DNA of 32,156 bases from NCBI GenBank assembly GCA_013314855.1, contig JABUEW010000043.1:1-32156 (forward strand), written 5' to 3'. Position 1 is the stretch's first letter. Each line of letters starts with the position of its first letter. Shown here piece by piece: positions 1 to 27,760 of this stretch. Source of the stretch: Bacillota bacterium. GTDB taxonomy: Bacteria; Bacillota; Clostridia; Acetivibrionales; DUMC01. A model generated the notes under the pieces. That model saw only the letters and a program-made list of their open reading frames with translations, was not told the origin of the DNA and ran no database searches. Made by a program: the position numbers and the translations under genes.

Positions 1-118
1 TCTACATTAATTTCTATAGACCAGTAAAGTAAGCACAATTTTATTTTCCAATCTCGTATTTTTTTCATTACTTGTCCCTGAAGTTTATCTTGTCTAAACT
101 ACTGCAAATTAGCTTGTC
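1..118. other. AT-rich segment left of the GC-rich module
   Basis: This stretch is strongly AT-rich, unlike the GC-rich DNA that begins at about 119, and I see no gene in it. The stop codon of the truncated SLH protein falls exactly at the change of composition. It may be host chromosome or the end of another inserted element; 118 bases are too few to decide. Confidence 0.5.
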
Positions 119-1303
119 TCACAACATGATTGTACCGCCCTCGTTGGAGAGGTCGCCGTCGATAGCCGTGTCCCATGCCACAGCCTCGCCGTCTTTGGTG
201 GCTGACCACACGATGTCGAGATTTCCAAGCCCGGTGGTGGACACCTCGATAGAAACTGTTTTATCCGTGTGGGTGTGCTGCGGCAGCTCAAAGGCTATGC
301 CCACCACCGGATAGACCGTGATATGCTGTGAGCAGCTTGTCGTTTTGCCATCGTAATTGGTGGCGGAGGCGGTCAATGTATAGCTGCCGCTTTCCTTGAA
401 TACAATGGTGCCGCCCTCTTTATCCAGGGAACCGGACACGGCTTCCGCAAGGTCAAGGGGCTGCGCGCTGCCGTCCGCGGCTTCTTTTGCGAGCGACCAA
501 GCGAGCGTCTTGGCGTATTTAAGGACAGGCGTTACGGTGATGCTTGTATCGGTGTGCGCCGCGGCAGGCAGTTCAAATGCAACCTGTGCCCTGGGATAGC
601 TGGCGGGGCCTCCGCCCGAACTGCCGGAGGGCGGTTTCTTTTCGCCCTCCTTTTCTGCCTCTTTTCTGATTTTTTCCAGTACTTCATCCTGCCGCACAAG
701 CAATGTGAAGGCTTCGGCTCTTGTGGTTTTGCCCTCCGGACGGATGGTGTTGTCGGGATAGCCTTTGACCAGATCGTACCGGATTGCGATGTTGACATAG
801 CCTTTGTCGGAGTTTTTGATGGCCTTGTCGTCCGCAAAGCCGGTGTTGTCCGTGGTCTGTTTTGCTTCTTCCCCCTTGCCGATTGCCCGCACCAGCATCC
901 GGATGATTTCAATGCGGGTAATCGGTTCATCGGGTTTTAAGCCGCCGCCATAATCCGCCGGGTCGAGGATGCCCCGGTCTACAAGGGCCTCGATGTTTTT
1001 CTCCGACCAGTGGCCGGCAATGTCGTCAAAGGTGGGCGGTTCTCTCCCCGCTGCTGCCGTGTCCACCTTGTGATTCCTGGCCAGCAGGGCGATAAATTCA
1101 CCTCTGGTGATGGTGGCGTCCGGCCTGACCGTTCCGTCAGGGTAGCCCTTGATCACGCCTTTTTCCGCAAGCTCGATGATGGTCTGTTCCGCCCAATGTC
1201 CCTTGATGTCGGGGAACAGGACCGCCGCGGCGTATGCGCTGCCGCAGAGCAGCAAGGACAGAACAAGGGCAAGGACGCAGATTCTCCTGCCTTTCTGTTT
1301 CAT
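119..1303 (-). CDS. Secreted S-layer homology (SLH) domain protein, C-terminally truncated
   Basis: A secreted cell-surface protein of 394 residues. Residues 1-25 are a signal peptide with a basic start, a Leu-rich core and an AYA cleavage region. Three SLH domains follow at about 29-76, 91-142 and 156-205; such domains normally bind secondary cell-wall polymer. A charged and Gly/Ser-rich linker (206-235) leads into two related beta-type repeats that open with VAFELP (240) and IAFELP (336). The first repeat is about 93 residues long. The second stops after about 60, right after EGGTIML, where the first continues with FKESGSYTLTA. The stop coincides with the change from GC-rich to AT-rich DNA, so the 3' end has been lost to a deletion or insertion. 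The ATG has an AAGGAT site about 10 bases upstream. It is the last gene of the GC-rich minus-strand module. Domain calls are firm; the truncation is inferred from the internal repeat. Confidence 0.85.
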   Translation of the reverse strand: MKQKGRRICVLALVLSLLLCGSAYAAAVLFPDIKGHWAEQTIIELAEKGVIKGYPDGTVRPDATITRGEFIALLARNHKVDTAAAGREPPTFDDIAGHWSEKNIEALVDRGILDPADYGGGLKPDEPITRIEIIRMLVRAIGKGEEAKQTTDNTGFADDKAIKNSDKGYVNIAIRYDLVKGYPDNTIRPEGKTTRAEAFTLLVRQDEVLEKIRKEAEKEGEKKPPSGSSGGGPASYPRAQVAFELPAAAHTDTSITVTPVLKYAKTLAWSLAKEAADGSAQPLDLAEAVSGSLDKEGGTIVFKESGSYTLTASATNYDGKTTSCSQHITVYPVVGIAFELPQHTHTDKTVSIEVSTTGLGNLDIVWSATKDGEAVAWDTAIDGDLSNEGGTIML

Positions 1304-1343
1304 GTGGTTTTCAATCCTTTCTGTTCGTTTTTTTTATGGATTC

Positions 1344-1377
1344 AAAAAGCCGGGGTCTCGCTTCGGGTCCCCCGGCT
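1344..1377 (-). terminator. Rho-independent terminator upstream of the SLH gene
   Basis: A perfect 8-bp stem, AGCCGGGG (1348-1355) with CCCCGGCT (1370-1377), is followed on the minus strand by a run of T residues (1344-1348). It lies between the 194-residue gene (1408-1992) and the SLH gene. Transcription from the AbrB/unknown gene pair therefore probably ends here, and the SLH gene should have its own promoter in the roughly 40 bases that remain, or depend on readthrough. Confidence 0.75.
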
Positions 1378-1407
1378 CCGTTCCATGCTTGCAACACTCC
1401 ATTGTCT

Positions 1408-1992
1408 TTACAGGTTCATGCTCATGCCGCCCCGCGCTTGCTCTTTGCGGAATGCCTCGATGGTTTCCGGTAATGGATGGATGACCTCGCCCCGCACCAT
1501 CTCGAACACACAGAAGCCGTCGCGGTCGCAGATCATCACCCGGTGCTGGTACTCCTTTTGCATCTCGATGTAGTCCTTGACCTCCTTTTCGCTGCAGAGC
1601 CACACGCCCGAGGCGTATCTGCCGTCCGGCAGAAAGCTGTACCCGCTGTACCTCGGCTCATGCTCCCGCGGGTCGAGAGCACCTCTTGGCCGGATTTGCG
1701 AAAGGTGCAGCCTGGCGGAGTCGGGCAAAAGCTCCGGCTTCAGGATGCCAAGGACGTCGCCGCGGTTCCACCGCGCACGCTCGCCGTCGGCCAGGGAAAC
1801 CGTGAAGATGGAACGACCAATGGGGTTGGGGTTGCTGCCGTTGCCACCTTCGCAAAAGTACAGTTGATGCGCACCATCCCGGCGCTCCGGCGGCAGGGAG
1901 GACGGCTTCAATACGACGACCTTGCCCGCGATGGACATGGCATACCCGGTTTCGATGCAGTCCTCCTGGGTGAATGCGTTTTTAACCGTCAT
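1408..1992 (-). CDS. Unknown protein of the GC-rich mobile module
   Basis: A 194-residue soluble protein I do not recognise. It has no signal peptide or membrane segment. The N-terminal 110 residues look beta-rich, with segments such as GKVVVLKPSSLPPE and RSIFTVSLADGERARW. The C-terminal part is rich in Tyr, Glu and Arg (KEVKDYIEMQKEYQHRV) and ends in a Met/Gly tail. The ATG sits 7 bases after AAGGAGG, a strong site. It follows the 95-residue AbrB gene by 12 bases and is probably cotranscribed with it, and it is followed by a terminator. GC-rich codon use matches its neighbours. Co-occurrence with AbrB regulators, a Dam-type methylase and an Api92-like protein suggests conjugative-element cargo of unknown role. 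Confidence 0.7.
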   Translation of the reverse strand: MTVKNAFTQEDCIETGYAMSIAGKVVVLKPSSLPPERRDGAHQLYFCEGGNGSNPNPIGRSIFTVSLADGERARWNRGDVLGILKPELLPDSARLHLSQIRPRGALDPREHEPRYSGYSFLPDGRYASGVWLCSEKEVKDYIEMQKEYQHRVMICDRDGFCVFEMVRGEVIHPLPETIEAFRKEQARGGMSMNL

Positions 1993-2004
1993 GTGAAAGC
2001 CTCC

Positions 2005-2289
2005 TTACTCTTTGCTGTTTTCTTCAAGGAGGGCGATGAGCCGCGCCGCGAGGGAGAGGAGGGTTTGCTTTTCCATGGTCCTGACGGCGGAGAACACATA
2101 CGCCTCCACCGCCTGCGGGGACTGGTCGCCCACCTCGATGAGGTCAACCTTTTGGGCGGTGACGACCCCTTTTTGCACCGCCAGCTTTATAATGTCGCCG
2201 TGCTGCATCCCTGCGGCGGCGCGGAGCTGCCTGGGGATCAGGACGCGGCCTTTGTCGTCCAGCACCTTGTAAATACCTTTACCGGACAT
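2005..2289 (-). CDS. AbrB/SpoVT-type DNA-binding protein
   Basis: A 94-residue protein with one N-terminal swapped-hairpin AbrB/SpoVT domain: VLDDKGRVLIPRQLR, then AAGMQHGDIIKLAVQKGVVTA. Family members dimerise and bind AT-rich promoters as transition-state regulators or as antitoxins. The C-terminal half (VFSAVRTMEKQTLLSLAARLIALLEE) is a predicted helix, perhaps for oligomerisation. I chose the ATG at 2289 because GGAGG lies 8 bases upstream; a GTG at 2298 is in frame but sits inside that site. The start overlaps the stop of the upstream AbrB-like gene by 11 bases, so translation is probably coupled. No toxin gene is recognisable next door, so a regulator of the element is more likely than an antitoxin. 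Confidence 0.85.
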   Translation of the reverse strand: MSGKGIYKVLDDKGRVLIPRQLRAAAGMQHGDIIKLAVQKGVVTAQKVDLIEVGDQSPQAVEAYVFSAVRTMEKQTLLSLAARLIALLEENSKE

Positions 2290-2701
2290 CCGAAACACCT
2301 CCGCTTCTCATGACTTCCCGGACGGTGTCGGGATGGATGCCGAGATCATCGAACAGCTCCCGCAGCTCATCGGGCAGGCTATCCAGCAGATCGGCCTGCA
2401 AAATGACGACCGTGCCCCTGGCGCAGACGATCTCCAGGTCGCTGTCCAAGGGAATCTCCGCCGCCTCCAGCAGTTCATGGGGCAGGGTGAGTTCCGCGTC
2501 CTCATCGTCCTTGAGAGCGGCGACGCCGTGCGGTGTCAAGACAAATTCTTTATAGGTGTTGTGGATGGAATCTGTGGAGCTGCTGATGTAGGCGAGCTTC
2601 ACCGTGTCGCCGGGGACCAGTCCCATGTCCTTCAGGAGCTGGGCGGGGACAGTGAGCTGGCCCTGTCCGTCCACAACACTTTGCATTTCAATCATTTTCA
2701 T
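2279..2701 (-). CDS. AbrB-like regulator with two swapped-hairpin-like halves
   Basis: A 140-residue protein. The N-terminal part, SVVDGQGQLTVPAQLLKDMG followed by LVPGDTVKLAY, is a recognisable SpoVT/AbrB half. A second weaker copy follows at about 91-120: AELTLPHELLEAAEI, then PLDSDLEIVCARGTVVILQ. Having both halves in one chain suggests a single polypeptide may form the DNA-binding fold that normally needs a dimer. The Asp/Glu-rich tail (DSLPDELRELFDDLGIHPDTV) is acidic. The ATG lies 9 bases after AGGAGG. It overlaps the single-domain AbrB gene by 11 bases, so the two are probably made together and may form mixed complexes. The N-terminal family call is firm; the second half is inferred. 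Confidence 0.8.
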   Translation of the reverse strand: MKMIEMQSVVDGQGQLTVPAQLLKDMGLVPGDTVKLAYISSSTDSIHNTYKEFVLTPHGVAALKDDEDAELTLPHELLEAAEIPLDSDLEIVCARGTVVILQADLLDSLPDELRELFDDLGIHPDTVREVMRSGGVSDVR

Positions 2702-2719
2702 AAACTGTTTCCTCCTTGG

Positions 2720-2737
2720 CGCCCCATCACTGGGGCG
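2720..2737. other. Stem-loop in the leader of the AbrB-like gene
   Basis: A perfect 6-bp GC stem, CGCCCC/GGGGCG, with a 6-base loop lies just upstream of the AGGAGG site of the 140-residue AbrB-like gene. On the minus strand no T-run follows it, so it is not a classic terminator of dam. It may shape translation of the leader or protect the message 5' end. Confidence 0.4.
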
Positions 2738-2772
2738 TATTCAATTTTTTTCGCATGGTCTTTTTCAGACCG

Positions 2773-3708
2773 CTATTCCGTGTCGTATAAGTCGTCCATC
2801 AGATCAAACAATCCTATCTGCGTGGGGATGTCCCGCATGCGCTCCGAGGTGTCGTAGTTGGAGATGAGTACTTCGGGGAATTCACAGCCGTTGTCATACC
2901 TTTGGGCCAGGTTGTTGATGCGGCTGACGGCTTCGATTTGATAGTCCTTGTACAGTTCCCGGATGTATTCGCAGTCGTTGTAGGACACCAGCCATTTGCC
3001 CTGGCAGCCGGCCAGCGTGTCCCGCAGCCTCGCGTGATCCTCCCTGCGGAATTCCACTGCGTAGTGACCTTCTGTTTCGAAGTACGGCGGGTCACAATAA
3101 AAAAAGGCGTTGTCCCTGTCGTACTGACGGATCAACGCCTCGAAGTCCTTGTTCTCGATCACCGTGTCTTTGAGCCTGCGGCTCCCCGACCAGATGAGGT
3201 GGAAGGTTTTGCGGATGTCGAAGGGCTGGCAGCCATAGGAAGTGCAGCCGCTGCCGTAGCTGTAGCGGATGAGCTTGAAGAAAGCGGCGGCCCGCTTGAC
3301 GTCATTCATGACGGCGTTCTCCATGAGGATGGCCTTGATTTCCTCGAACTGCGGCCCGCTCAAGTTTTGCTGGGCCAGCTCCAGTTCCTCCCGCAGGTAT
3401 TCGCTGGTGAATTCCTCCTTTTCAAGATATTTTTTCAGGACGTTGAATTCGTCCCTGCCGTTTAAGGGCAGGAAGTTCAACTCCTTGAGCAGGGCGAAAG
3501 GGCGCTCCTTGACGCAGCGGAACAGGTTGGCAAGGTCGGCGTTGAAGTCGTTGTAGACCTCCATGTCGGCACCGGGCGGCTTTCCGAACAGCACCCAGCC
3601 ACCGCCGCCGAAGACCTCAACGTACCGTCCAAACTCCTTGGGCATCCGCTGGTAGATAAGGGAGCGCAAGGCCTTTTTCCCGCCGACCCAACTGATGATG
3701 CTGTTCAA
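2773..3708 (-). CDS. D12-class N6-adenine DNA methyltransferase (Dam-like, orphan)
   Basis: Transfers a methyl group from S-adenosylmethionine to adenine N6 in a DNA target that cannot be read from the sequence. The 311-residue length is usual for the family. SAM-binding motif: SWVGGKKALR (residues 6-15) with FGGGG at 33-37; acidic contact YNDFNADL at 52-59; catalytic DPPY at 206-209. The start is a TTG, with an in-frame TGA just before it and GGAGG about 10 bases upstream, so no longer start is possible. No restriction endonuclease gene is nearby, so this is a solitary methylase, as often carried by conjugative elements to escape host restriction or to time replication. It follows the Cys-rich small gene by 7 bases and is probably cotranscribed. 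Confidence 0.92.
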   Translation of the reverse strand: MNSIISWVGGKKALRSLIYQRMPKEFGRYVEVFGGGGWVLFGKPPGADMEVYNDFNADLANLFRCVKERPFALLKELNFLPLNGRDEFNVLKKYLEKEEFTSEYLREELELAQQNLSGPQFEEIKAILMENAVMNDVKRAAAFFKLIRYSYGSGCTSYGCQPFDIRKTFHLIWSGSRRLKDTVIENKDFEALIRQYDRDNAFFYCDPPYFETEGHYAVEFRREDHARLRDTLAGCQGKWLVSYNDCEYIRELYKDYQIEAVSRINNLAQRYDNGCEFPEVLISNYDTSERMRDIPTQIGLFDLMDDLYDTE

Positions 3709-3715
3709 TCATCCA

Positions 3716-3916
3716 TCACCTCCCCGGCCTGCCGGCCCGGTCCATCTCGGTGCGCAGGCAGGTTCCGTCCGTGTCCCAGCAGATAAAACCGACGCCGGGA
3801 TAAGGACAGCCTTTGCACCGGTTTAAGTCTTTGGGAAGGGGGACGGTATAGATTTTTCTTGGCGGCCCGTGGTCGCTGTTTTCTTTTTTCTGCTGTGGTT
3901 TTACATCTGTGTCCAA
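3716..3916 (-). CDS. Small Cys-rich protein, possible metal binder
   Basis: A 66-residue protein I cannot name. The first 30 residues are basic and polar. The second half has four cysteines, C34-x2-C37, C46 and C53 (RCKGCPYPGVGFICWDTDGTC), which could bind zinc or an Fe-S cluster. The start is TTG with AAGGAG 9 bases upstream. The stop codon TGA lies within the ribosome site of the following methyltransferase gene, which argues for translational coupling and for this being a real gene. Function unknown; a small accessory factor of the methyltransferase is one possibility based only on adjacency. Confidence 0.65.
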   Translation of the reverse strand: MDTDVKPQQKKENSDHGPPRKIYTVPLPKDLNRCKGCPYPGVGFICWDTDGTCLRTEMDRAGRPGR

Positions 3917-3945
3917 GGTTTTAGTCTCCTTTCCGGCAACAAAAT

Positions 3946-4016
3946 AAGACGCCGCCTTTTCAGGTAGCGCCTTATGCTCATTTGCCTTTTCGATATATGT
4001 ATAGGCGGCATGTCTT
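3946..4016 (-). other. Long stem-loop between the Api92-like gene and the Cys-rich gene
   Basis: Two arms, AAGAC-GCCGCC (3946-3956) and GGCGGC-AT-GTCTT (4004-4016), pair over 11 bases with a 2-base bulge and a 47-base loop. On the minus strand the structure follows the Api92-like stop codon directly and is trailed by ATTTTGTT, a weak T-tract. It could be an attenuating terminator splitting the module into two transcription units, or a structured leader for the Cys-rich protein. The long loop makes it weaker than a standard terminator. Confidence 0.35.
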
Positions 4017-4017
4017 T

Positions 4018-4617
4018 CTACACACCGCCCATCTTAGGAATTTCATCCGGCTCATCTTCCACATATTCATATTCGCCGGTGCTTTCATTGTAGATATATC
4101 CTGCTTCGGCAAGGTCTATATCGAGTATGCTTGCCGCCAGTTCAAGGGCTTCGGCAGAACCGCCCGCCGGGATATAACAGCTTAAGGTTTTGCCGCTTTT
4201 ATACTCTGCCTTGCCGGTGTTATGCCCAAAGTCCTCGTCCGCCCATTTGTAGTCGAAACGGATATCCGGAAACATAGAGGACAGCTTTTTCATCAGATCG
4301 CTAACGCTGCTCCATGCGGTTAAGAATTTTACCGTGCTGCCGTCAAAATTGTCTGCGGTATGTTCGTCATAGCCATAGCTATTCCATTTCGTTCCCCAGT
4401 TTTTTATGCTCCAGTCATACCAGCAGTTTTCAGCACCGTACTTTTCAATCTCCTCCCTGCCCAGATTCCCCCTGTAGATATGTTCCGGCATCGGTACAAT
4501 TTTATTGAAATCAATGCTGCCGGCTCCAATCTCATCGTTCTTAATGGCTTCAAACATTGCCCTGACCTTTTCCTTATCACCATATGCGGTAAGTATGTTT
4601 GTGATATGATTGGGCAT
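4018..4617 (-). CDS. Api92-like protein with ferredoxin-like fold (YubB/DUF1281 type)
   Basis: A 199-residue protein starting MPNHITNILTAYG, the hallmark opening of the phage/plasmid Api92 (YubB, DUF1281) family, with KNWGTKWNSYG at about 92-102, another conserved signature. The family is found on plasmids, phages and conjugative elements; its biochemical role is not known to me. The C-terminal 30 residues are Glu/Tyr-rich and probably flexible. The ATG follows GGAGG within GGAGGAATGTAAC, which also contains the stop codon of the preceding 175-residue gene, so the two are translationally linked. The protein supports a mobile-element origin for the whole module. Confidence 0.8.
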   Translation of the reverse strand: MPNHITNILTAYGDKEKVRAMFEAIKNDEIGAGSIDFNKIVPMPEHIYRGNLGREEIEKYGAENCWYDWSIKNWGTKWNSYGYDEHTADNFDGSTVKFLTAWSSVSDLMKKLSSMFPDIRFDYKWADEDFGHNTGKAEYKSGKTLSCYIPAGGSAEALELAASILDIDLAEAGYIYNESTGEYEYVEDEPDEIPKMGGV

Positions 4618-5406: not shown

Positions 5407-5481
5407 TGGTGGAGCCGATGGGAGTCGAACCCACGACTTCAACACTGCCAGTGTTGCACTCTCCCTCTGAGTTACGGCCCC
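5407..5481 (-). tRNA. tRNA-Ala (anticodon GGC)
   Basis: A 75-base cloverleaf with encoded CCA. The acceptor stem GGGGCCG/CGGCTCC contains the G3-U70 pair, the identity element for alanyl-tRNA synthetase. The D stem is ACTC/GAGT, the anticodon arm is CAACA-CTGGCAG-TGTTG with anticodon GGC, and the T arm is GTGGG-TTCGACT-CCCAT. All stems pair, so the gene is intact. It reads GCC and GCU codons. It is transcribed leftward, toward the GC-rich module. Confidence 0.97.
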
Positions 5482-22080: not shown

Positions 22081-23052
22081 TTAGTCTTTTAATTTTAGCC
22101 TCAGCCTGGTTATCAAATCCTGAAAAATGCCCTTATACCTATTGTTTGGAAGAGAATTAAGTGTATCAATACCTCTCTCTATATATTTCTCAAGTATTTT
22201 TTCCGAATATTTTATTCCTCCTAATTCTTTTACCGCAGTTATTGCCATTGCTATTTCTTTACACGGTACTTTGCCTTCCCTATCTTTAAAAGTCAGTATT
22301 GTCCTTTTAAGTGTCTCACTTTTTGCCATGGCGTATATAAGAGGCAGTGTTATTACTCCCTTTGAAATATCGTTACCTGTGGGTTTTCCTGTAACTTCCG
22401 GCTCCAGGATAAAATCATTTATATCGTCCCGTATCTGAAAAGCCATACCATAATAAAATCCGAACCTGGTTAAAGTCTTTACAATATGGGAGTGACATTC
22501 TGCAGAATCCGCACCCAGGGCACATGCAGCGGAGAATAAGACAGCAGTTTTCCTATTGGTTTTTTTCAAGTATGAAACTATCGAAGTGTTAATATTGAAC
22601 CTATCAAGAAATTGGTCAACTTCTCCTTCACAAATTGATTTCAACCCTTTGGCTATAATTTCCATTTTATCTTTGGATACTTTTCCTGAAAGCATTAAAA
22701 CAGCTTTTGTAAATAAATAATCACCAGTATAAATTGCCATATCTGTACCATATTTCTCAGATACGGTAATTACGCCTCTTCTTATTTTTGAATTATCTAT
22801 TATATCATCATGAACAAGGGTTGCATTATGAAGTATTTCAATCGCCCCTGCTATGGGTATGGTCTTTTCTCTTCTATATTCCCCGAATTTGGCAGAATTT
22901 ATGACAAATAGAGGCCGTATCCTTTTGCCTCCCGAATCTATTAAGGTCTGAACAATTTCTTCAAGGGTTTTATTCCTTGAATGTATGCTGTTTTTTATAA
23001 ATTCTTCAACCAACTTCAGTTCCTGGAATATTTCCGGATATTCGCTCCACAA
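22081..23052 (-). CDS. Polyprenyl diphosphate synthase (HepT/DmkB-like)
   Basis: Adds isopentenyl diphosphate units to make the isoprenoid tail of menaquinone or demethylmenaquinone, or another long-chain polyprenyl product. 323 residues of the trans-prenyltransferase family: GGKRIRP (41-47), first Asp-rich motif DDIID (82-86), KTAVLF, and second Asp-rich motif DDIND (209-213) in FQIRDDIND. The start is TTG with a weak site; no ATG exists near the family's N terminus (WSEYPEI), so TTG is accepted. It is the last of four adjacent genes with the EetA/EetB/ApbE-like set, matching DmkB of Listeria, whose quinone serves extracellular electron transfer. No menaquinone ring genes are in the window. 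Confidence 0.9.
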   Translation of the reverse strand: MWSEYPEIFQELKLVEEFIKNSIHSRNKTLEEIVQTLIDSGGKRIRPLFVINSAKFGEYRREKTIPIAGAIEILHNATLVHDDIIDNSKIRRGVITVSEKYGTDMAIYTGDYLFTKAVLMLSGKVSKDKMEIIAKGLKSICEGEVDQFLDRFNINTSIVSYLKKTNRKTAVLFSAACALGADSAECHSHIVKTLTRFGFYYGMAFQIRDDINDFILEPEVTGKPTGNDISKGVITLPLIYAMAKSETLKRTILTFKDREGKVPCKEIAMAITAVKELGGIKYSEKILEKYIERGIDTLNSLPNNRYKGIFQDLITRLRLKLKD

Positions 23053-23067
23053 GTTAACAACACAACC

Positions 23068-23592
23068 TTATCTTACCAAAATTTTTTGAAAAATATTTGT
23101 CCTTTTTAAAGCCTTTATCAAATAATTGCTGCACAAACCTACAAAGCTTCCCATAATTACTCCCGATAGGATAAGTATAGGCAGATAGGCCATTACTGAA
23201 AAATCTTTCATAATAACACCTGCCATTAGCAATTGGCCTATATTGTGCATCACGGCACCTGCAATACTTATCCCGATAATACTGAATAATCCTGTCGTTT
23301 TGTAATACATGAAATTCATAACGACAGTGCTGAGGATACCTCCTGCAATACTAAAAAGAAATACGGTAAACCCTCCTGTAAAAAGAGAAGAAATTACAGT
23401 CCTTAAAATTACAAGTATAAAGGCATCTTTAAGCCCTAAAAATACTATGGTTGTAAGGACGATAATATTTGCCAACCCCAGTTTAATACCCGGTAATGCT
23501 ATTGGTAAAGGTATCCAGTTTTCGATTATCGAGAGAACTATTGCTTGCGCCGTAAAAATTGCAAGCATTACCATCTTCTTTGTTTTCCCCAT
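23068..23592 (-). CDS. eetB: Gx-transporter family membrane protein (EetB-like)
   Basis: A 174-residue protein with five or six membrane segments, e.g. MVMLAIFTAQAIVLSII, LANIIVLTTIVFLG, FTVFLFSIAGGIL, GISIAGAVMHNIGQLLMAG and MAYLPILILSGVIMG. It belongs to the family labelled heptaprenyl diphosphate synthase component I or Gx transporter, and the SLFTGG...AGGILS stretch is typical. It has no prenyl-synthase active site. In Listeria and Enterococcus the homologue EetB is needed for extracellular electron transfer, apparently for moving electrons through the membrane together with EetA. The ATG comes 1 base after the stop of the EetA-like gene, so the pair is coupled. Family assignment is firm; role by analogy. 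Confidence 0.82.
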   Translation of the reverse strand: MGKTKKMVMLAIFTAQAIVLSIIENWIPLPIALPGIKLGLANIIVLTTIVFLGLKDAFILVILRTVISSLFTGGFTVFLFSIAGGILSTVVMNFMYYKTTGLFSIIGISIAGAVMHNIGQLLMAGVIMKDFSVMAYLPILILSGVIMGSFVGLCSNYLIKALKRTNIFQKILVR

Positions 23593-23593
23593 G

Positions 23594-24007
23594 TTAATAC
23601 GTTACTCCGTCTACTTCATCTTTTTTCCCTTCAATTTTTATCATGAAGCGCCCAGGCAGGCAAACAGCAGTATCGCCCGGTTTTTCCAACCACCCTGTCT
23701 TCACGCAAACCTTATCGGGACAATTAGATTCTTCAAACCTGATCCTGCCCTTTTCAATTAAAATCACAACCCGGTAATCCCCCGAGATTTCCAGCCTCTC
23801 GGGGCCTTTTATTTCATCAAGGTCAACTTCTTTTATTATCTTATTGCCCTGCCTTATAACTGCGACTTTACGGATATTGGCTCCTCTTGAAAAAGCTTCC
23901 GGCAACAAGATGCCGGCTAAAGCTAAAAGTAGTATAAAAGTAACAAGAAAAACATCTCCTTTTTTAAAAATATTACCTTGTTTAGAAATATTACCTTTTT
24001 TCAACAT
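23594..24007 (-). CDS. eetA: NusG domain II membrane protein (EetA-like)
   Basis: A 137-residue protein with one N-terminal membrane helix (VFLVTFILLLALAGILL, about 19-35) and an extracytoplasmic NusG-II (DUF1312) domain containing SNCPDKVCVKTGW and AVCLPGR, with conserved cysteines C96, C101 and C116. The Cys pair could form a disulfide or bind a redox centre. It corresponds to EetA of the Listeria electron-transfer locus. The ATG at 24007 has AAGGA 8 bases upstream and overlaps the end of apbE by 17 bases; an ATG at 24028 has no good site. The fixed order apbE-eetA-eetB-prenyl synthase argues for one complex or pathway. Confidence 0.82.
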   Translation of the reverse strand: MLKKGNISKQGNIFKKGDVFLVTFILLLALAGILLPEAFSRGANIRKVAVIRQGNKIIKEVDLDEIKGPERLEISGDYRVVILIEKGRIRFEESNCPDKVCVKTGWLEKPGDTAVCLPGRFMIKIEGKKDEVDGVTY

Positions 24008-25109
24008 AATTAAATTCCTTGCTTTCATCCTTTAAAACAAAATTGCCTCTTAACCCTGAAGATACATAAATGTTTTTGTCTCGTGTAATAAAAATACCTT
24101 CAACTCCTTCTAAACTCTCTACCAGTTCCATTCCCTTTTCCAGCCCCAAAACAAATACGGCCGTTGATAAAGCATCTCCCTTAATTGACAGGTCCGTTAT
24201 AATTGTTGCACTAATTAGGCCTGAGTCTGAAGGATAACCCGTTTTTGGGTCCAGTATATGATGATACCTTTTGCCGTTTGCCTCAAAATACCTTTCATAA
24301 TCACCCGATGTTATAACAGCCTTGTCAGATACCTCAACTATTCCGATATATTTGCCCGTCACATCCCTTGGGTGTTGTATTCCTATTTTCCATGGGGTTC
24401 CATCGGGTTTTTTACCTAGGGTTACTACATTTCCACCCAAATTTATATAGGCGGATTTTATTCCATGTTTTTTGTAGATTTTTATAGCTTCGTCCCCGGC
24501 ATACCCCTTTGCTATACCGCCCAAATCAATTGACTGGCCGGTTCTTCCCAGTTTTGCCTTCAAATTTTCCTCATCAATAAATAAATCTTTATAATTTACC
24601 AATAAAAGTAAATCTTTAATTTCTTTTTCTTCAGGTACTCTTTGTTTATCCGTAGATATTCCCCATGCCTTTATTAAGGGTCCCACAGTTGGATCAAAGG
24701 CGCCACTGCTTAATTGGGAATATTCTTTTGCTTTTGACAGTACATATATGGTATCCTGACTTAAGCTAACAGCACCCTTCCCTGCCATTTTATTAAGTGC
24801 GTTCACTTCACTATCCGGCGAATTTACTGTCATTTTGCGTTCAATATCCTTAAGCCTTTCAGCCACCTCTTTTACTGCATTACTTGCATTGCTTGAATTA
24901 TTTGCATTACCCTCATTATCTCCATTATTTGCATATACCTTCTGGGTTATAATTGTACCCATCAAAAACTCCTGCCACTCAACAAGTCCATCCTCATCAG
25001 AGTTCTTCTTATTTTTACCTGCGCAGGATGTTAAAGGCGTTAAGATTAAAGGTAACAACAAAATTATTGCATATAGCTTTATCTTGTACAATAGGAAATT
25101 ATTATCCAT
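23991..25109 (-). CDS. apbE: ApbE-type FAD:protein FMN transferase, lipoprotein (FmnB-like)
   Basis: Transfers FMN from FAD onto a Ser/Thr of partner flavoproteins outside the membrane. 372 residues. The signal peptide ends in a lipobox, PLTSC with lipid-bearing C29, so the enzyme is membrane-anchored. Family motifs: SSGAFDPTVGPLIKAWG, GRTGQSIDLGGIAKGYAGDEA, YINLGGNVVTLG, ITSGDYERYFEANGKRYHHILDPKTG in parts, and the metal-binding region DLSIKGDALSTAVFVLG. The ATG at 25109 is preceded by AGGAGA; the open frame extends 14 codons upstream to a GTG inside a tandem repeat, which has no proper site. A substrate is next door: the lipoprotein at 25345-25761 carries the flavinylation motif. Confidence 0.93.
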   Translation of the reverse strand: MDNNFLLYKIKLYAIILLLPLILTPLTSCAGKNKKNSDEDGLVEWQEFLMGTIITQKVYANNGDNEGNANNSSNASNAVKEVAERLKDIERKMTVNSPDSEVNALNKMAGKGAVSLSQDTIYVLSKAKEYSQLSSGAFDPTVGPLIKAWGISTDKQRVPEEKEIKDLLLLVNYKDLFIDEENLKAKLGRTGQSIDLGGIAKGYAGDEAIKIYKKHGIKSAYINLGGNVVTLGKKPDGTPWKIGIQHPRDVTGKYIGIVEVSDKAVITSGDYERYFEANGKRYHHILDPKTGYPSDSGLISATIITDLSIKGDALSTAVFVLGLEKGMELVESLEGVEGIFITRDKNIYVSSGLRGNFVLKDESKEFNYVEKR

Positions 25110-25134
25110 TCTCCTGGTGCAATCTCCTTTTAAA

Positions 25135-25180
25135 TAATTTTTATTATACACCTCTCCTAATTTTTATTATACACCTCTCC
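25135..25180 (-). repeat. Perfect 23-bp tandem repeat in the apbE leader
   Basis: Two identical 23-base units abut at 25135-25157 and 25158-25180. On the minus strand each unit reads GGAGAGGTG followed by TATAAT and AAAAATTA. Each copy therefore carries a Shine-Dalgarno-like site and a -10-like hexamer (TATAAT at 25143-25148 and 25166-25171). It lies 26 bases upstream of the apbE ATG. The perfect identity points to recent duplication or an unstable site. Confidence 0.9.
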
Positions 25181-25200
25181 GGGTCAAATGACCTAATGCT

Positions 25201-25231
25201 ATTATATCATGGTTGTCAACTTAGCCATCAA
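25201..25231 (-). promoter_or_regulatory. Candidate promoter of the apbE operon
   Basis: TATAAT (25201-25206 on the minus strand) has TTGATG 19 bases upstream (25226-25231); the spacer is longer than ideal. A perfect TTGACA (25214-25219) is also present but too close to that -10 box. The TATAAT copies inside the tandem repeat are alternatives without a matching -35. Confidence 0.35.
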
Positions 25232-25266
25232 CTTAAAGCATCCGACATCTCCCATCTAAAACAATA

Positions 25267-25291
25267 CCCCAGGTTAAACTTTTGCCTGGGG
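25267..25291. terminator. Terminator hairpin between the flavin lipoprotein and apbE
   Basis: CCCCAGG (25267-25273) pairs with CCTGGGG (25285-25291). On the plus strand it is followed by CTCTTTTT, a good T-tract; on the minus strand by TATTGTTTT, a weaker one. It probably ends the lipoprotein transcript on the minus strand and may act in both directions. Confidence 0.7.
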
Positions 25292-25344
25292 CTCTTTTTA
25301 TCTGATTTTCAAGCATTATTACGTCGAAAGTGGTCTGACCTGCA

Positions 25345-25761
25345 TTATTTTTTTGCCTTCTCCAAAGCTTCCTTAACAAGAGACACAAAGGTTTCGTGCG
25401 AACGGGTAGCTCCTGATATTGCATCAACCTTGTTTATGTCCTGGACTTCAACAAGCTTGTCTCCATATGTCTTTGAAGCTTTTATAGCCTTCTGAGCCTT
25501 ATCGTAGTTTTCCTGGTTTTCAATTTTTCCATCTTTTTTACCGTAGTCTTCATCTTTTTCTTTACCATTGCTCATTTCTTTCCATACAACATCAGTGATT
25601 TTACCATCTTTAATGGTTATTTCCACCAATGCAGTATTGCCATAATCGTCAGGCTGGCTTTCAGCTTTCCATGTACCATCTTTGTACTTGCTTCCGCTGC
25701 AACCGCTTACCAAAACTAAAGCTAATAAAACTACAAATGTAATAATGAGATATTTCCTCAT
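25345..25761 (-). CDS. FMN-binding-domain lipoprotein (PplA-like, single flavin site)
   Basis: An exported electron carrier of 138 residues. The signal peptide has a lipobox VSGC with lipid-bearing C21. The mature part is one FMN_bind domain: YKDGTWKAES, TALVEITIKDGKITDVVW, and the flavinylation motif DAISGATRS, in which T119 would carry covalent FMN attached by ApbE. Listeria PplA has, as I recall, two such domains; this one has a single site and is half as long. It has its own terminator, is divergent from ndh2 across 226 bases, and lies upstream of apbE. A role as terminal surface electron carrier is inferred from this setting; a part in another flavin-dependent reductase is possible. Confidence 0.88.
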   Translation of the reverse strand: MRKYLIITFVVLLALVLVSGCSGSKYKDGTWKAESQPDDYGNTALVEITIKDGKITDVVWKEMSNGKEKDEDYGKKDGKIENQENYDKAQKAIKASKTYGDKLVEVQDINKVDAISGATRSHETFVSLVKEALEKAKK

Positions 25762-25987
25762 AATAATATGCCCCCTTAAAATGATAATTTTGTTATAATA
25801 TTTACCCTGAAAAATCTAAATTAATCCAATTTTTTTGCTTTTTTTTGTATTATAAATTTTATCAATTTTAATTTGGTTGTTAAGTTGTTGTTTATATTTC
25901 TAACAATAAGGTAAATAGTATTATGTATAATATATTTTTAAAAATATTTGTTAATTATATAACATGATAACATGGGAGGAGTAGCCA
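25762..25987. promoter_or_regulatory. Divergent control region of the flavin lipoprotein and ndh2
   Basis: A very AT-rich spacer that must hold the promoters of both genes. On the plus strand TATAAT at 25926-25931 is a good -10 for ndh2, without a convincing -35. It is followed at once by the perfect 16-base palindrome ATATTTTTAAAAATAT (25932-25947), which would cover the start site and could be an operator. The ndh2 ribosome site GGAGG lies 8 bases before its ATG. For the lipoprotein, TATTAT/TATAAC-like boxes are seen near its start, but none is decisive. Confidence 0.45.
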
Positions 25988-27760
25988 ATGTCAACCAAAA
26001 TTGTTATTCTGGGAGCAGGATATGCAGGAATTAAAGCTGCCCTGACTTTATACAAAAAAAAAGAGAAGGATGACATAGAAATTACGGTAATCGATAAAAA
26101 CCCTTATCATACCTTGTTAACGGAAATTCATGAAGTTGCAGGCAACAGGATAAATGAAGACGGAGTAATTGTTCCTTTAAAAGATATTTTTAAATATACT
26201 GATGTTAAATTGGTCTGTAACAAAATAACAAATATTGATTTTGAGAATCAAAAGCTCTATTCGGAATCCGAAGAATACCAATATGATTATTTAATAATTG
26301 CTGCAGGAAGCCATCCGAACTTTTATGATATACCCGGAATGGAAAAACATAGTTTTCCTTTATGGTCTTATGAAAACGCAATTTCTATACGTGAGCATAT
26401 AAAAGACTGTTTTTTAAAAGCCTCTCAAGAAAAAGATCCTGAAAAAAGAAAAACACTATTAACTTTTATTGTAGGAGGAGGAGGTTTTACCGGTGTAGAA
26501 ATGATAGGGGAATTAGCCCTCTGGGTGAAAGACTTATGCGCCGAATATGGTATTTTGAGAAATGATGTTAAATTAATACTTATAGAAGCTCTACCCGAAA
26601 TACTCAACAATTTAAAACCAAAAAGCGTAACAAAAGCCAGGAATTACCTGATTAACAAATTGAGAGTCGAAGTTATGGTCAATGCTCCTATAATCGAAGT
26701 TACTGCTGATACGGTTAAATTAGAAAATGGAACTATTATTCCCTCAAAAACACTTATCTGGACTGCAGGGGTAAAAGCATGCAATCTGGCTGATTCCCTT
26801 AAAATCAGTAAAGGTAAAGCTTGCAGAATAAATGTAGACCAATACACTCAAACGCAATACGAAAATGTATTTGCTGCCGGTGATATATCAATTTTTAAAA
26901 CCGAAGAAGGCTCTCTTCCTGCTCTTGTTGAAGCAGCCCTACAAACAGGAGAAGTTGCGGCTTTGAATGTTCTCTCCCGGATAAGAGGGAAAGAAATGAA
27001 AAAGCTGGAGCCAAAGCTCCATGGTGTAATGGTATCTGCAGGAAGTTATTTTGCTGTAAGCAATATTATGGGACGTGAGCTTCCCAGGCTGTTATCAATA
27101 CTGATGAAGTATCTTGTTAACATTCACTACCTCTTTGGAATAGGCGGATTTGAACTTGTGTTTAAATATATCAAACATGAGTTTTTGTTTAAAAAGCAAC
27201 GTAAAACTCTGATAGAAAAACATGTTTCTTCAATTACCCCTGCATTTTGGCTAGTACCTATAAGGTTGTTTTTAGGCTATGCATGGCTGGCAGAAGGAAT
27301 TAAAAAAATAAATGAAAAATGGCTTGTAAAAGCTCTCCTGGCAGGTGCTCCTCCTGATGCTGGCAGCGGTGCATCAATTACCGATACGGGGGAGAAAGTT
27401 TTTAGAATAATCAGTGACCATACACCTGGTTGGTACGCCTGGATAGCTGATAATATTATAATTCCAAATGCCCTCATATTTCAAATACTGATTGTAATAG
27501 CTGAATTAGGACTGGGGCTGGCATTTATATCGGGCACATTCACTTTCATAGCGGCTATTGTATCACTTGTGATGAATTTGAATTTTATACTCTCAACCGG
27601 AATGTATTCATACGACTGGTGGTATATACCCGCTGCTTTAAGCATGATGGGAGGCGCAGGAAAGGCTTTTGGTGTTGACCATTACCTTATACCGTATCTT
27701 ATGAGACAGTGGAGGTATTTTGTAAGGAACAGAAAATTTAAGCCCCTCCTATTTAAGTAG
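25988..27760 (+). CDS. ndh2: Type II NADH dehydrogenase with C-terminal membrane domain (Ndh2/Ndh3 of electron-transfer loci)
   Basis: Oxidises NADH and reduces membrane quinone without pumping protons. 590 residues, against about 400 for ordinary NDH-2. FAD-binding GAGYAG is at 9-14, NADH-binding GGGGFTG at about 163-169, and the second FAD motif FAAGDIS at about 295. From about residue 405 a membrane domain follows, with hydrophobic segments FWLVPIRLFLGYAWLAEGI, ALIFQILIVIAELGLGLAFI, FTFIAAIVSLVMNLNFIL and WWYIPAALSMMGGAG, resembling DoxX-like domains. NDH-2 with such an extension is characteristic of the flavin-based extracellular electron transfer loci of Listeria (Ndh2) and Enterococcus (Ndh3). 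It is divergent from the flavin lipoprotein gene and its 3' end overlaps the SSB-like gene by 12 bases. Confidence 0.92.
   Translation: MSTKIVILGAGYAGIKAALTLYKKKEKDDIEITVIDKNPYHTLLTEIHEVAGNRINEDGVIVPLKDIFKYTDVKLVCNKITNIDFENQKLYSESEEYQYDYLIIAAGSHPNFYDIPGMEKHSFPLWSYENAISIREHIKDCFLKASQEKDPEKRKTLLTFIVGGGGFTGVEMIGELALWVKDLCAEYGILRNDVKLILIEALPEILNNLKPKSVTKARNYLINKLRVEVMVNAPIIEVTADTVKLENGTIIPSKTLIWTAGVKACNLADSLKISKGKACRINVDQYTQTQYENVFAAGDISIFKTEEGSLPALVEAALQTGEVAALNVLSRIRGKEMKKLEPKLHGVMVSAGSYFAVSNIMGRELPRLLSILMKYLVNIHYLFGIGGFELVFKYIKHEFLFKKQRKTLIEKHVSSITPAFWLVPIRLFLGYAWLAEGIKKINEKWLVKALLAGAPPDAGSGASITDTGEKVFRIISDHTPGWYAWIADNIIIPNALIFQILIVIAELGLGLAFISGTFTFIAAIVSLVMNLNFILSTGMYSYDWWYIPAALSMMGGAGKAFGVDHYLIPYLMRQWRYFVRNRKFKPLLFK

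Follow-up and report, generated by a model that had tools for sequence, protein, structure and literature searches.

The flavin-based extracellular electron transfer (FLEET) gene set of Listeria comprises Ndh2, EetA, EetB, FmnB, a PplA with two FMN_bind domains, DmkA, DmkB and FmnA/EcfT. Clostridia, to our knowledge, are usually regarded as fermenters without a quinone-based electron chain. Here, we analysed a FLEET-like locus at positions 22081-27760 of a 32,156-nucleotide stretch of clostridial DNA (hereafter the window), which constitutes contig C43 of a 4.43-Mb draft genome (252 contigs, 96.6% complete, 3.3% contaminated). This source genome is referred to as G000 and its contigs by C-numbers; G001-G039 designate relatives and L-numbers individual loci. 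In three genomes of the same order, G025, G027 and G036, the type II NADH dehydrogenase (NDH-2) has the same sequence as in Acetivibrio mesophilus, Anaerobacterium chartisolvens and Ruminiclostridium papyrosolvens, which places the host in the order of Acetivibrio and Ruminiclostridium. Named cultured relatives with the locus are available for tests, among them Caldicoprobacter oshimai (L212), where carrier and ApbE adjoin NDH-2, and A. mesophilus (L178), where no carrier adjoins it. The fermenter and quinone auxotroph Lactiplantibacillus plantarum reportedly performs extracellular electron transfer (EET) with exogenous 1,4-dihydroxy-2-naphthoic acid (DHNA), for which Ndh2 is needed, PplA conditionally (PMC8837199, PMC9888254, PMC10746273) and eetA/B in some assays (PMC9888254). 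EET gene sets in Clostridia (faecalis-type genes) are already in print. Our literature search, limited in reach, returned no description of FLEET in Acetivibrio or Ruminiclostridium, and we do not claim that the variant described here is unpublished.

The first-pass annotation of the window had assigned six genes at 22081-27760 to FLEET. All six open reading frames are present as proposed and exceeded the Pfam cut-offs of their families in a profile scan, the profiles for EetA, EetB, FMN_bind and ApbE among them:

22081..23052, minus strand: hepT/dmkB-like polyprenyl diphosphate synthase, 323 residues (PF00348 polyprenyl_synt, 221 bits)
23068..23592, minus strand: eetB, ECF-S-like (energy-coupling factor substrate-binding) protein, probable subunit for export of flavin adenine dinucleotide (FAD), 174 residues (PF07456 Hpre_diP_synt_I, 164 bits)
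23594..24028, minus strand: eetA, NusG domain II protein, 144 residues, overlapping apbE (PF07009 NusG_II, 101 bits)
23991..25151, minus strand: apbE/fmnB, flavin mononucleotide (FMN) transferase with a lipoprotein-like N-terminus, 386 residues as listed (PF02424, 326 bits)
25345..25761, minus strand: PplA-like carrier lipoprotein with one FMN_bind domain and one DAISGAT motif, 138 residues (PF04205, 38.3 bits, cut-off 22)
25762..25987, no strand: divergent intergenic region with a Rex-like palindrome at 25948-25965 (weak consensus match)
25988..27760, plus strand: ndh2, type II NADH dehydrogenase (~1-395) with a DoxX-like membrane domain (~402-590), 590 residues (PF07992 Pyr_redox_2, 131 bits)

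The ndh2 gene on the plus strand thus stands head to head with the carrier gene on the minus strand. The true start of apbE may lie slightly downstream of the listed one. EetB also matched PF12822 (ECF_trnsprt) weakly, below cut-off; PF07456 is the family used for eetB in PMC9973259, and that work favours reading the protein as an FAD exporter of ECF-S-like type rather than as part of the quinone machinery. The best NCBIfam model for HepT was TIGR02748 (281 bits, below its equivalog cut-off of 456.55). Like FLEET of Listeria monocytogenes and Enterococcus faecalis, the locus combines a membrane-extended Ndh2, EetA, EetB, FmnB/ApbE and a DmkB-like synthase, and its carrier matches one half of the PplA model. 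Unlike those systems, it is divergent, its carrier has a single domain (138 residues against a 302-position model), and the DmkA-like gene of the source genome lies outside the locus, with no marker of a head-group pathway. A FLEET-like reading is well supported by the gene set, the PplA-model type of the carrier domain, the membrane extension of NDH-2 and the co-occurring prenyltransferase; since two features of the Listeria system, a two-domain PplA and an own DHNA supply, fail, we speak of a FLEET variant. PMC8238504 defines EET operationally by an NADH dehydrogenase with a transmembrane helix within a flavinylation-associated gene cluster; here, an NDH-2 with a DoxX-like, all-helical end lies beside FMN_bind and ApbE genes (Pfam and structure model), and the locus, on its predicted domains, is an EET locus under that definition.

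With moderate confidence, we read the locus from its genes as a probable FLEET-like electron-export chain in a divergent clostridial layout, a head-group-auxotrophic variant as in L. plantarum that shares one ApbE and one EetB with the Rnf complex. NDH-2 would oxidise cytosolic NADH and pass the electrons to a prenylated naphthoquinone in the membrane. HepT would supply the chain of this quinone, and an orphan DmkA/MenA-like enzyme with its gene outside the locus would couple chain and head. The head group, DHNA or a similar compound, would be imported from outside, since markers of both known pathways are missing from the source genome. The DoxX-like end of NDH-2 might help to pass electrons across the membrane to the FMN lipoprotein, from which Fe(III), flavins, humics or another acceptor outside the cell could receive them. 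EetB, together with ECF partners, would export FAD, ApbE would attach FMN to the lipoprotein, and this pair presumably supplies Rnf and a second lipoprotein as well. We see two modules in this arrangement, one for flavin export and attachment (EetB, EetA and ApbE, shared with Rnf) and one leading from NADH to quinone (NDH-2, HepT and the prenyltransferase). The locus resembles FLEET of L. plantarum in its Ndh2, prenyltransferase and chain synthase without a complete DHNA pathway; unlike in that species, whose FLEET locus has been called complete, the DmkA-like gene of the source genome lies apart, and its only ApbE and EetB presumably also act for Rnf. If this reading holds true, fermenting Clostridia could dump electrons outside when neighbours supply the quinone head group, the redox balances assumed for these organisms would change, and a link to quinone cross-feeding as in L. 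plantarum would emerge.

To what extent does the gene arrangement recur? Searching the source genome and 39 relatives with the NDH-2 of the window yielded a match in 28 of the 40 genomes and none in the remaining 12. Two layouts were found. In the divergent (compact) one, HepT, EetB, EetA, usually ApbE and sometimes the carrier are encoded head to head with an NDH-2 of ~590 residues; the collinear one, in its full form, reads EetA, EetB, prenyltransferase, NDH-2 (638-714 residues), HepT, carrier and ApbE. Divergent loci occur in 17 of the 40 genomes, collinear ones in 15 and both in four (G018, G024, G032 and G036), where match length together with nearby UbiA and ApbE matches was the basis for calling G019, G021, G038 and the second NDH-2 of G036 collinear. 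Four partial collinear clusters (L055, L056, L064 and L065) show NDH-2, carrier and ApbE alone in view, and G030 has an additional NDH-2 without a cluster (L067). The collinear clusters L057 (G002) and L060 (G005) of the same order share EetA, EetB, a DoxX-ended NDH-2, HepT and ApbE with the window and include a UbiA-family prenyltransferase; unlike the window, collinear clusters run in one direction, with a longer NDH-2 and carriers lacking Dxx[ST][GA]AT. A wider contig search returned 80 loci, from which 13 of Paenibacillus (L239-L251) were left out as they match the DoxX part only. The remaining 67 NDH-2 loci comprise 41 divergent, 15 collinear (median NDH-2 length 638 residues) and 11 with NDH-2 alone, i.e. 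no family member in view, eight of which begin less than 0.5 kb from a contig end. With 41 of 67 loci in the divergent order and 15 aligned relatives sharing 54-71% identity with the window NDH-2, the arrangement in the window is not due to chance. An NDH-2 tree of 92 rows (77 different) placed the window in a supported group of 21 rows, of which 19 are divergent and two alone, and the collinear rows fell into groups of 18, 5 and 2. Recurrence and tree grouping together indicate that the divergent order is an established layout and not the decay of a single genome. The first-pass annotation had left open a reduced or a distinct version; a variant it is, but 'reduced FLEET' as a full account was rejected, as both layouts reside together in four genomes.

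Among the 41 divergent loci, HepT and EetB were each found in 33, EetA in 29, ApbE in 28, a carrier of the window type (P-type) in 20 and one of another type (p-type) in three; carrier and ApbE occur together in 19 by hand count. In the 40-genome set, HepT is present in 15 of 15 uncut divergent clusters.

The window carrier shows a lipobox-like VSGC and a single DAISGAT motif (read by eye). The NCBI model of PplA (NF041941) matched it with 40.5 bits over positions 177-288 of 302 (cut-off 325), and other window-type carriers matched either or both halves of this model (L039 at 53-157, L204 at 52-282). We thus read the predicted protein as half a PplA: PplA-like, not PplA. It also matched structure 3o6u weakly (E = 8.6e-5). 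A single flavin site had been noted at the outset as setting this carrier apart; one FMN_bind domain and one motif are indeed all it has, but one-domain carriers are common in such loci and not peculiar to the source genome. The motif Dxx[ST]GAT was found in the window-type carriers of 17 of 20 divergent loci. Dxx[ST][GA]AT occurs in none of 27 p-type rows (three from divergent loci, two duplicates), of which 26 carry [DE]xx[STA]xVT, a pattern picked after inspection, at apparently the same place as the window motif according to one weak pairwise alignment. Five p-type carriers that were scanned stayed below the FMN_bind Pfam cut-off or gave no match. By size, p-type carriers may be the FMN-bind2 type of PMC11334425. 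We rejected the idea that genuine PplA is found among the collinear carriers rather than in the window, since the PplA model fits the window type and none of four p-type carriers. As the p-type occupies the same slot in three divergent loci (L205, L206 and L233), the findings suggest that the two types are interchangeable. A second DAISGAT lipoprotein, 32% identical to the window carrier, is encoded on C39, and the three FMN_bind frames of the source genome measure 156, 167 and 225 residues, hence no large FMN_bind-fused reductase was found among them.

Sharing of the flavinylation genes also underlies the strongest competing explanation, namely that ApbE-EetA-EetB serve to flavinylate Rnf, NDH-2 and HepT being a separate neighbour, with no electron export taking place. 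The source genome has a single ApbE match, a single PF07456 (EetB) match and an Rnf complex on C11, another contig than the locus, which itself contains no Rnf genes; RnfG carries NAVSGAT and RnfD DAVSSAT. Moreover, six genomes without an NDH-2 match keep ApbE-EetA-EetB, five of them (G001, G013, G014, G031 and G035) along with Rnf and with no HepT in the stretch read, the sixth (G003) with HepT, and ApbE is out of view in 13 of the 41 divergent loci. These Rnf-associated clusters share the three flavinylation genes with the window but, unlike it, show no carrier beside them in any of the six genomes. In the source genome, the carrier sits between NDH-2 and ApbE, and six of the 17 compact-locus genomes lack an RnfD above cut-off (G022 has a partial match of 62 bits). 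Small non-Rnf FMN_bind proteins, by our own thresholds those below 55 bits in frames of at most 230 residues, track NDH-2: they occur in 14 of 17 compact-locus genomes and 4 of 11 collinear-only genomes versus none of the 12 without NDH-2. We consider the Rnf explanation unlikely.

But where would an exporting chain obtain its quinone? DmkA (MenA) had been noted as absent from the window, which is correct; a DmkA-like gene lies elsewhere in the genome. Two UbiA-family proteins of the source genome exceeded the cut-off. The first is a decaprenyl-phosphate phosphoribosyltransferase, above its own cut-off; the second (G000:C6:40864-41787) came nearest to MenA-type models without reaching the cut-off of any. 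It shares 53% identity with a protein of G002, encoded inside a collinear cluster, and 65% with one of G023. Based on its nearest models and its kinship with the G002 copy, we infer that the source genome does encode a DmkA-like enzyme, outside the locus. On C89, a 478/478-residue identical copy of the transporter-like gene preceding the DmkA-like gene on C6 (L153:3724-5550) adjoins a degraded DmkA fragment (97 residues at 87% identity, with one stop), for which duplication and strain mixture are candidate readings. For MenB and MqnA/D, the profile search of the 252-contig, 96.6% complete draft gave no match. A genome devoid of quinone synthesis had been named as an argument against FLEET; what we found is half of that, since prenyltransferase and chain synthase are kept, as in the quinone-auxotrophic yet EET-performing L. 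plantarum.

The same pattern extends over the 40 genomes, in which UbiA proteins were sorted by best reference with NCBIfam spot checks and those matching MenA/MqnP references poorly (among them G017, G029 and G039) were excluded from the MenA count. A MenA-type prenyltransferase (MqnP-type in G009 alone) is present in 26 of 28 genomes with NDH-2 versus 0 of 12 without (Fisher p = 1.6e-8, only indicative because the genomes are related), and in 22 of 23 versus 0 of 6 at ≥90% completeness and ≤5% contamination; G010 gave no UbiA match. In three of the 41 divergent loci (L172, L183 and L204), the prenyltransferase gene comes next after NDH-2. MenB exceeded the cut-off in only two of the 28 NDH-2 genomes (G011 and G030), where ten genomes with nothing but sub-cut-off matches (highest G009, 148 bits) were counted as lacking it. 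In the MqnA/D search, PF02621 matched above cut-off in G026 and G039 (28 and 47 bits). A prenyltransferase without MenB fits organisms that add the chain to head groups from another source, L. plantarum being the known example. Near an SsuA-like binding protein, G009 (L149:4589-10107) and G032 (L150:4336-11342) encode a UbiD-family decarboxylase and an MqnP-type prenyltransferase. The decarboxylase of L149 is above the cut-off of the menaquinone model TIGR03701, and UbiX and ABC transporter genes are also found there; MqnA/D gave no match above cut-off in either genome, and the sets possibly serve salvage of a late intermediate of the futalosine pathway.

The scarcity of MenB would also suit a quinone-free route, in which NDH-2 passes electrons through its DoxX domain straight to EetA, the lipoprotein or free flavin. 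G016 lacks a MenA-type enzyme as well, and in L. plantarum, according to PMC9888254, riboflavin-dependent iron reduction needs Ndh2 and eetA/B and not DmkA/DmkB, although pre-growth with a quinone is required. However, the prenyltransferase accompanies NDH-2 almost throughout, and residues 4-394 of the window NDH-2 align with the solved NDH-2 structure 4nwz from end to end over the core, including a stretch which we take to be the quinone site, with one Q-to-E change. We regard the quinone-free route as quite improbable. That NDH-2 merely recycles or detoxifies stray quinones or oxygen beside lipoprotein genes with another job strikes us as very improbable. Its ordinary core, the missing cytochrome bd (no match to subunit I in 40 of 40 genomes, the source included) and the divergent loci without a carrier would suit this view. 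Against it stands the recurrence, in several families, of NDH-2 head to head with EetAB and HepT and often with ApbE and a flavin lipoprotein.

Several observations weigh against the FLEET-like electron-export chain that we favour. No carrier lies beside NDH-2 in 18 of the 41 divergent loci. Eleven of the 13 loci lacking ApbE show 6-9 kb on that side, and the gene is therefore truly non-adjacent in these. HepT is missing in eight, and four of these (L187, L189, L192 and L195) offer 9 kb of visible sequence. No NDH-2 match was obtained in G001, the sister genome (89% complete), and G016, whose NDH-2 is nearest by tree, has neither a MenA-type enzyme nor MenB. The DmkA-like and HepT assignments are both below equivalog cut-offs, the head-group markers searched are MenB and MqnA/D in a draft genome, and electron export in this organism is predicted from genes alone. 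Of the ECF partners, no FmnA/EcfT-like gene was seen by eye in the open reading frame lists, no genome search having been aimed at ECF ATPase or T subunits.

How might electrons cross the membrane? The last ~200 residues of NDH-2, searched alone, matched PF07681 (DoxX) marginally at 23.8 bits (cut-off 23.6), a match unreported in the full-length Pfam scan; PF04173 (DoxD) and PF07291 (MauE) both stayed below cut-off. As the full-length NDH-2 model was poor in this part, the domain was modelled separately on 45 sequences, which gave a usable, all-helical model (mean predicted local distance difference test score 79). Foldseek returned no match at E ≤ 0.001 among 53. After re-alignment of the candidates, TMEM35A ranked first (Z = 9.3), and 12 of the 14 best rows belonged to the vitamin K carboxylase GGCX (Z = 6.3-8.7, 119-134 residues aligned); unrelated CD53 reached 7.1 and VKOR 4.3-5.3, and the comparison tool warns that helical bundles attain such values through their common arrangement. 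For these reasons, a GGCX-like fold is taken as a lead only. G009 encodes the domain separately: a stand-alone DoxX-like protein of 181 residues (L066:9510-10055), which shares 63% identity with the window NDH-2 over residues 399-583 of the latter, has its own ATG after a ribosome-binding-site-like stretch and stands head to head with genes for a one-domain FMN lipoprotein, EetA and EetB, i.e. in the place of NDH-2 beside the carrier, with a full NDH-2 ~15 kb away. A MerR-like gene (by eye) lies downstream of it. On the grounds of this arrangement, we tentatively propose that the DoxX-like end could be the membrane hand-off site, which would contain its own pocket for naphthoquinone (or flavin), possibly with a GGCX-like fold, and would reduce the FMN lipoprotein outside, and that the chain could be a self-contained NADH-to-surface relay run by many quinone-auxotrophic fermenters on scavenged heads. 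We consider the proposal unlikely; the stand-alone protein makes the membrane crossing of electrons in FLEET-like chains testable. Our literature search, with the reach given above, found no paper linking DoxX to FLEET Ndh2; PMC13104607 reports increased levels of two DoxX proteins in Haloferax reducing Fe(III).

Scans for the Rex consensus over the whole window and for terminators gave chance-level results. The Rex-like palindrome at 25948-25965 lies 22 bases ahead of the NDH-2 start and agrees weakly, in 12 of 14 positions, with the Rex consensus used; with the same consensus, sites of at least 12/14 occur in six of 41 distinct related intergenic regions against 0.64 expected. The sole Rfam match in the window at gathering threshold is a tRNA at 5410-5481. 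Positions 1-4500, with methylase-like and SLH-like open reading frames by eye, have a GC content of 0.54-0.58 compared to 0.33-0.42 elsewhere, for which a mobile island and an assembly joint are candidate readings.

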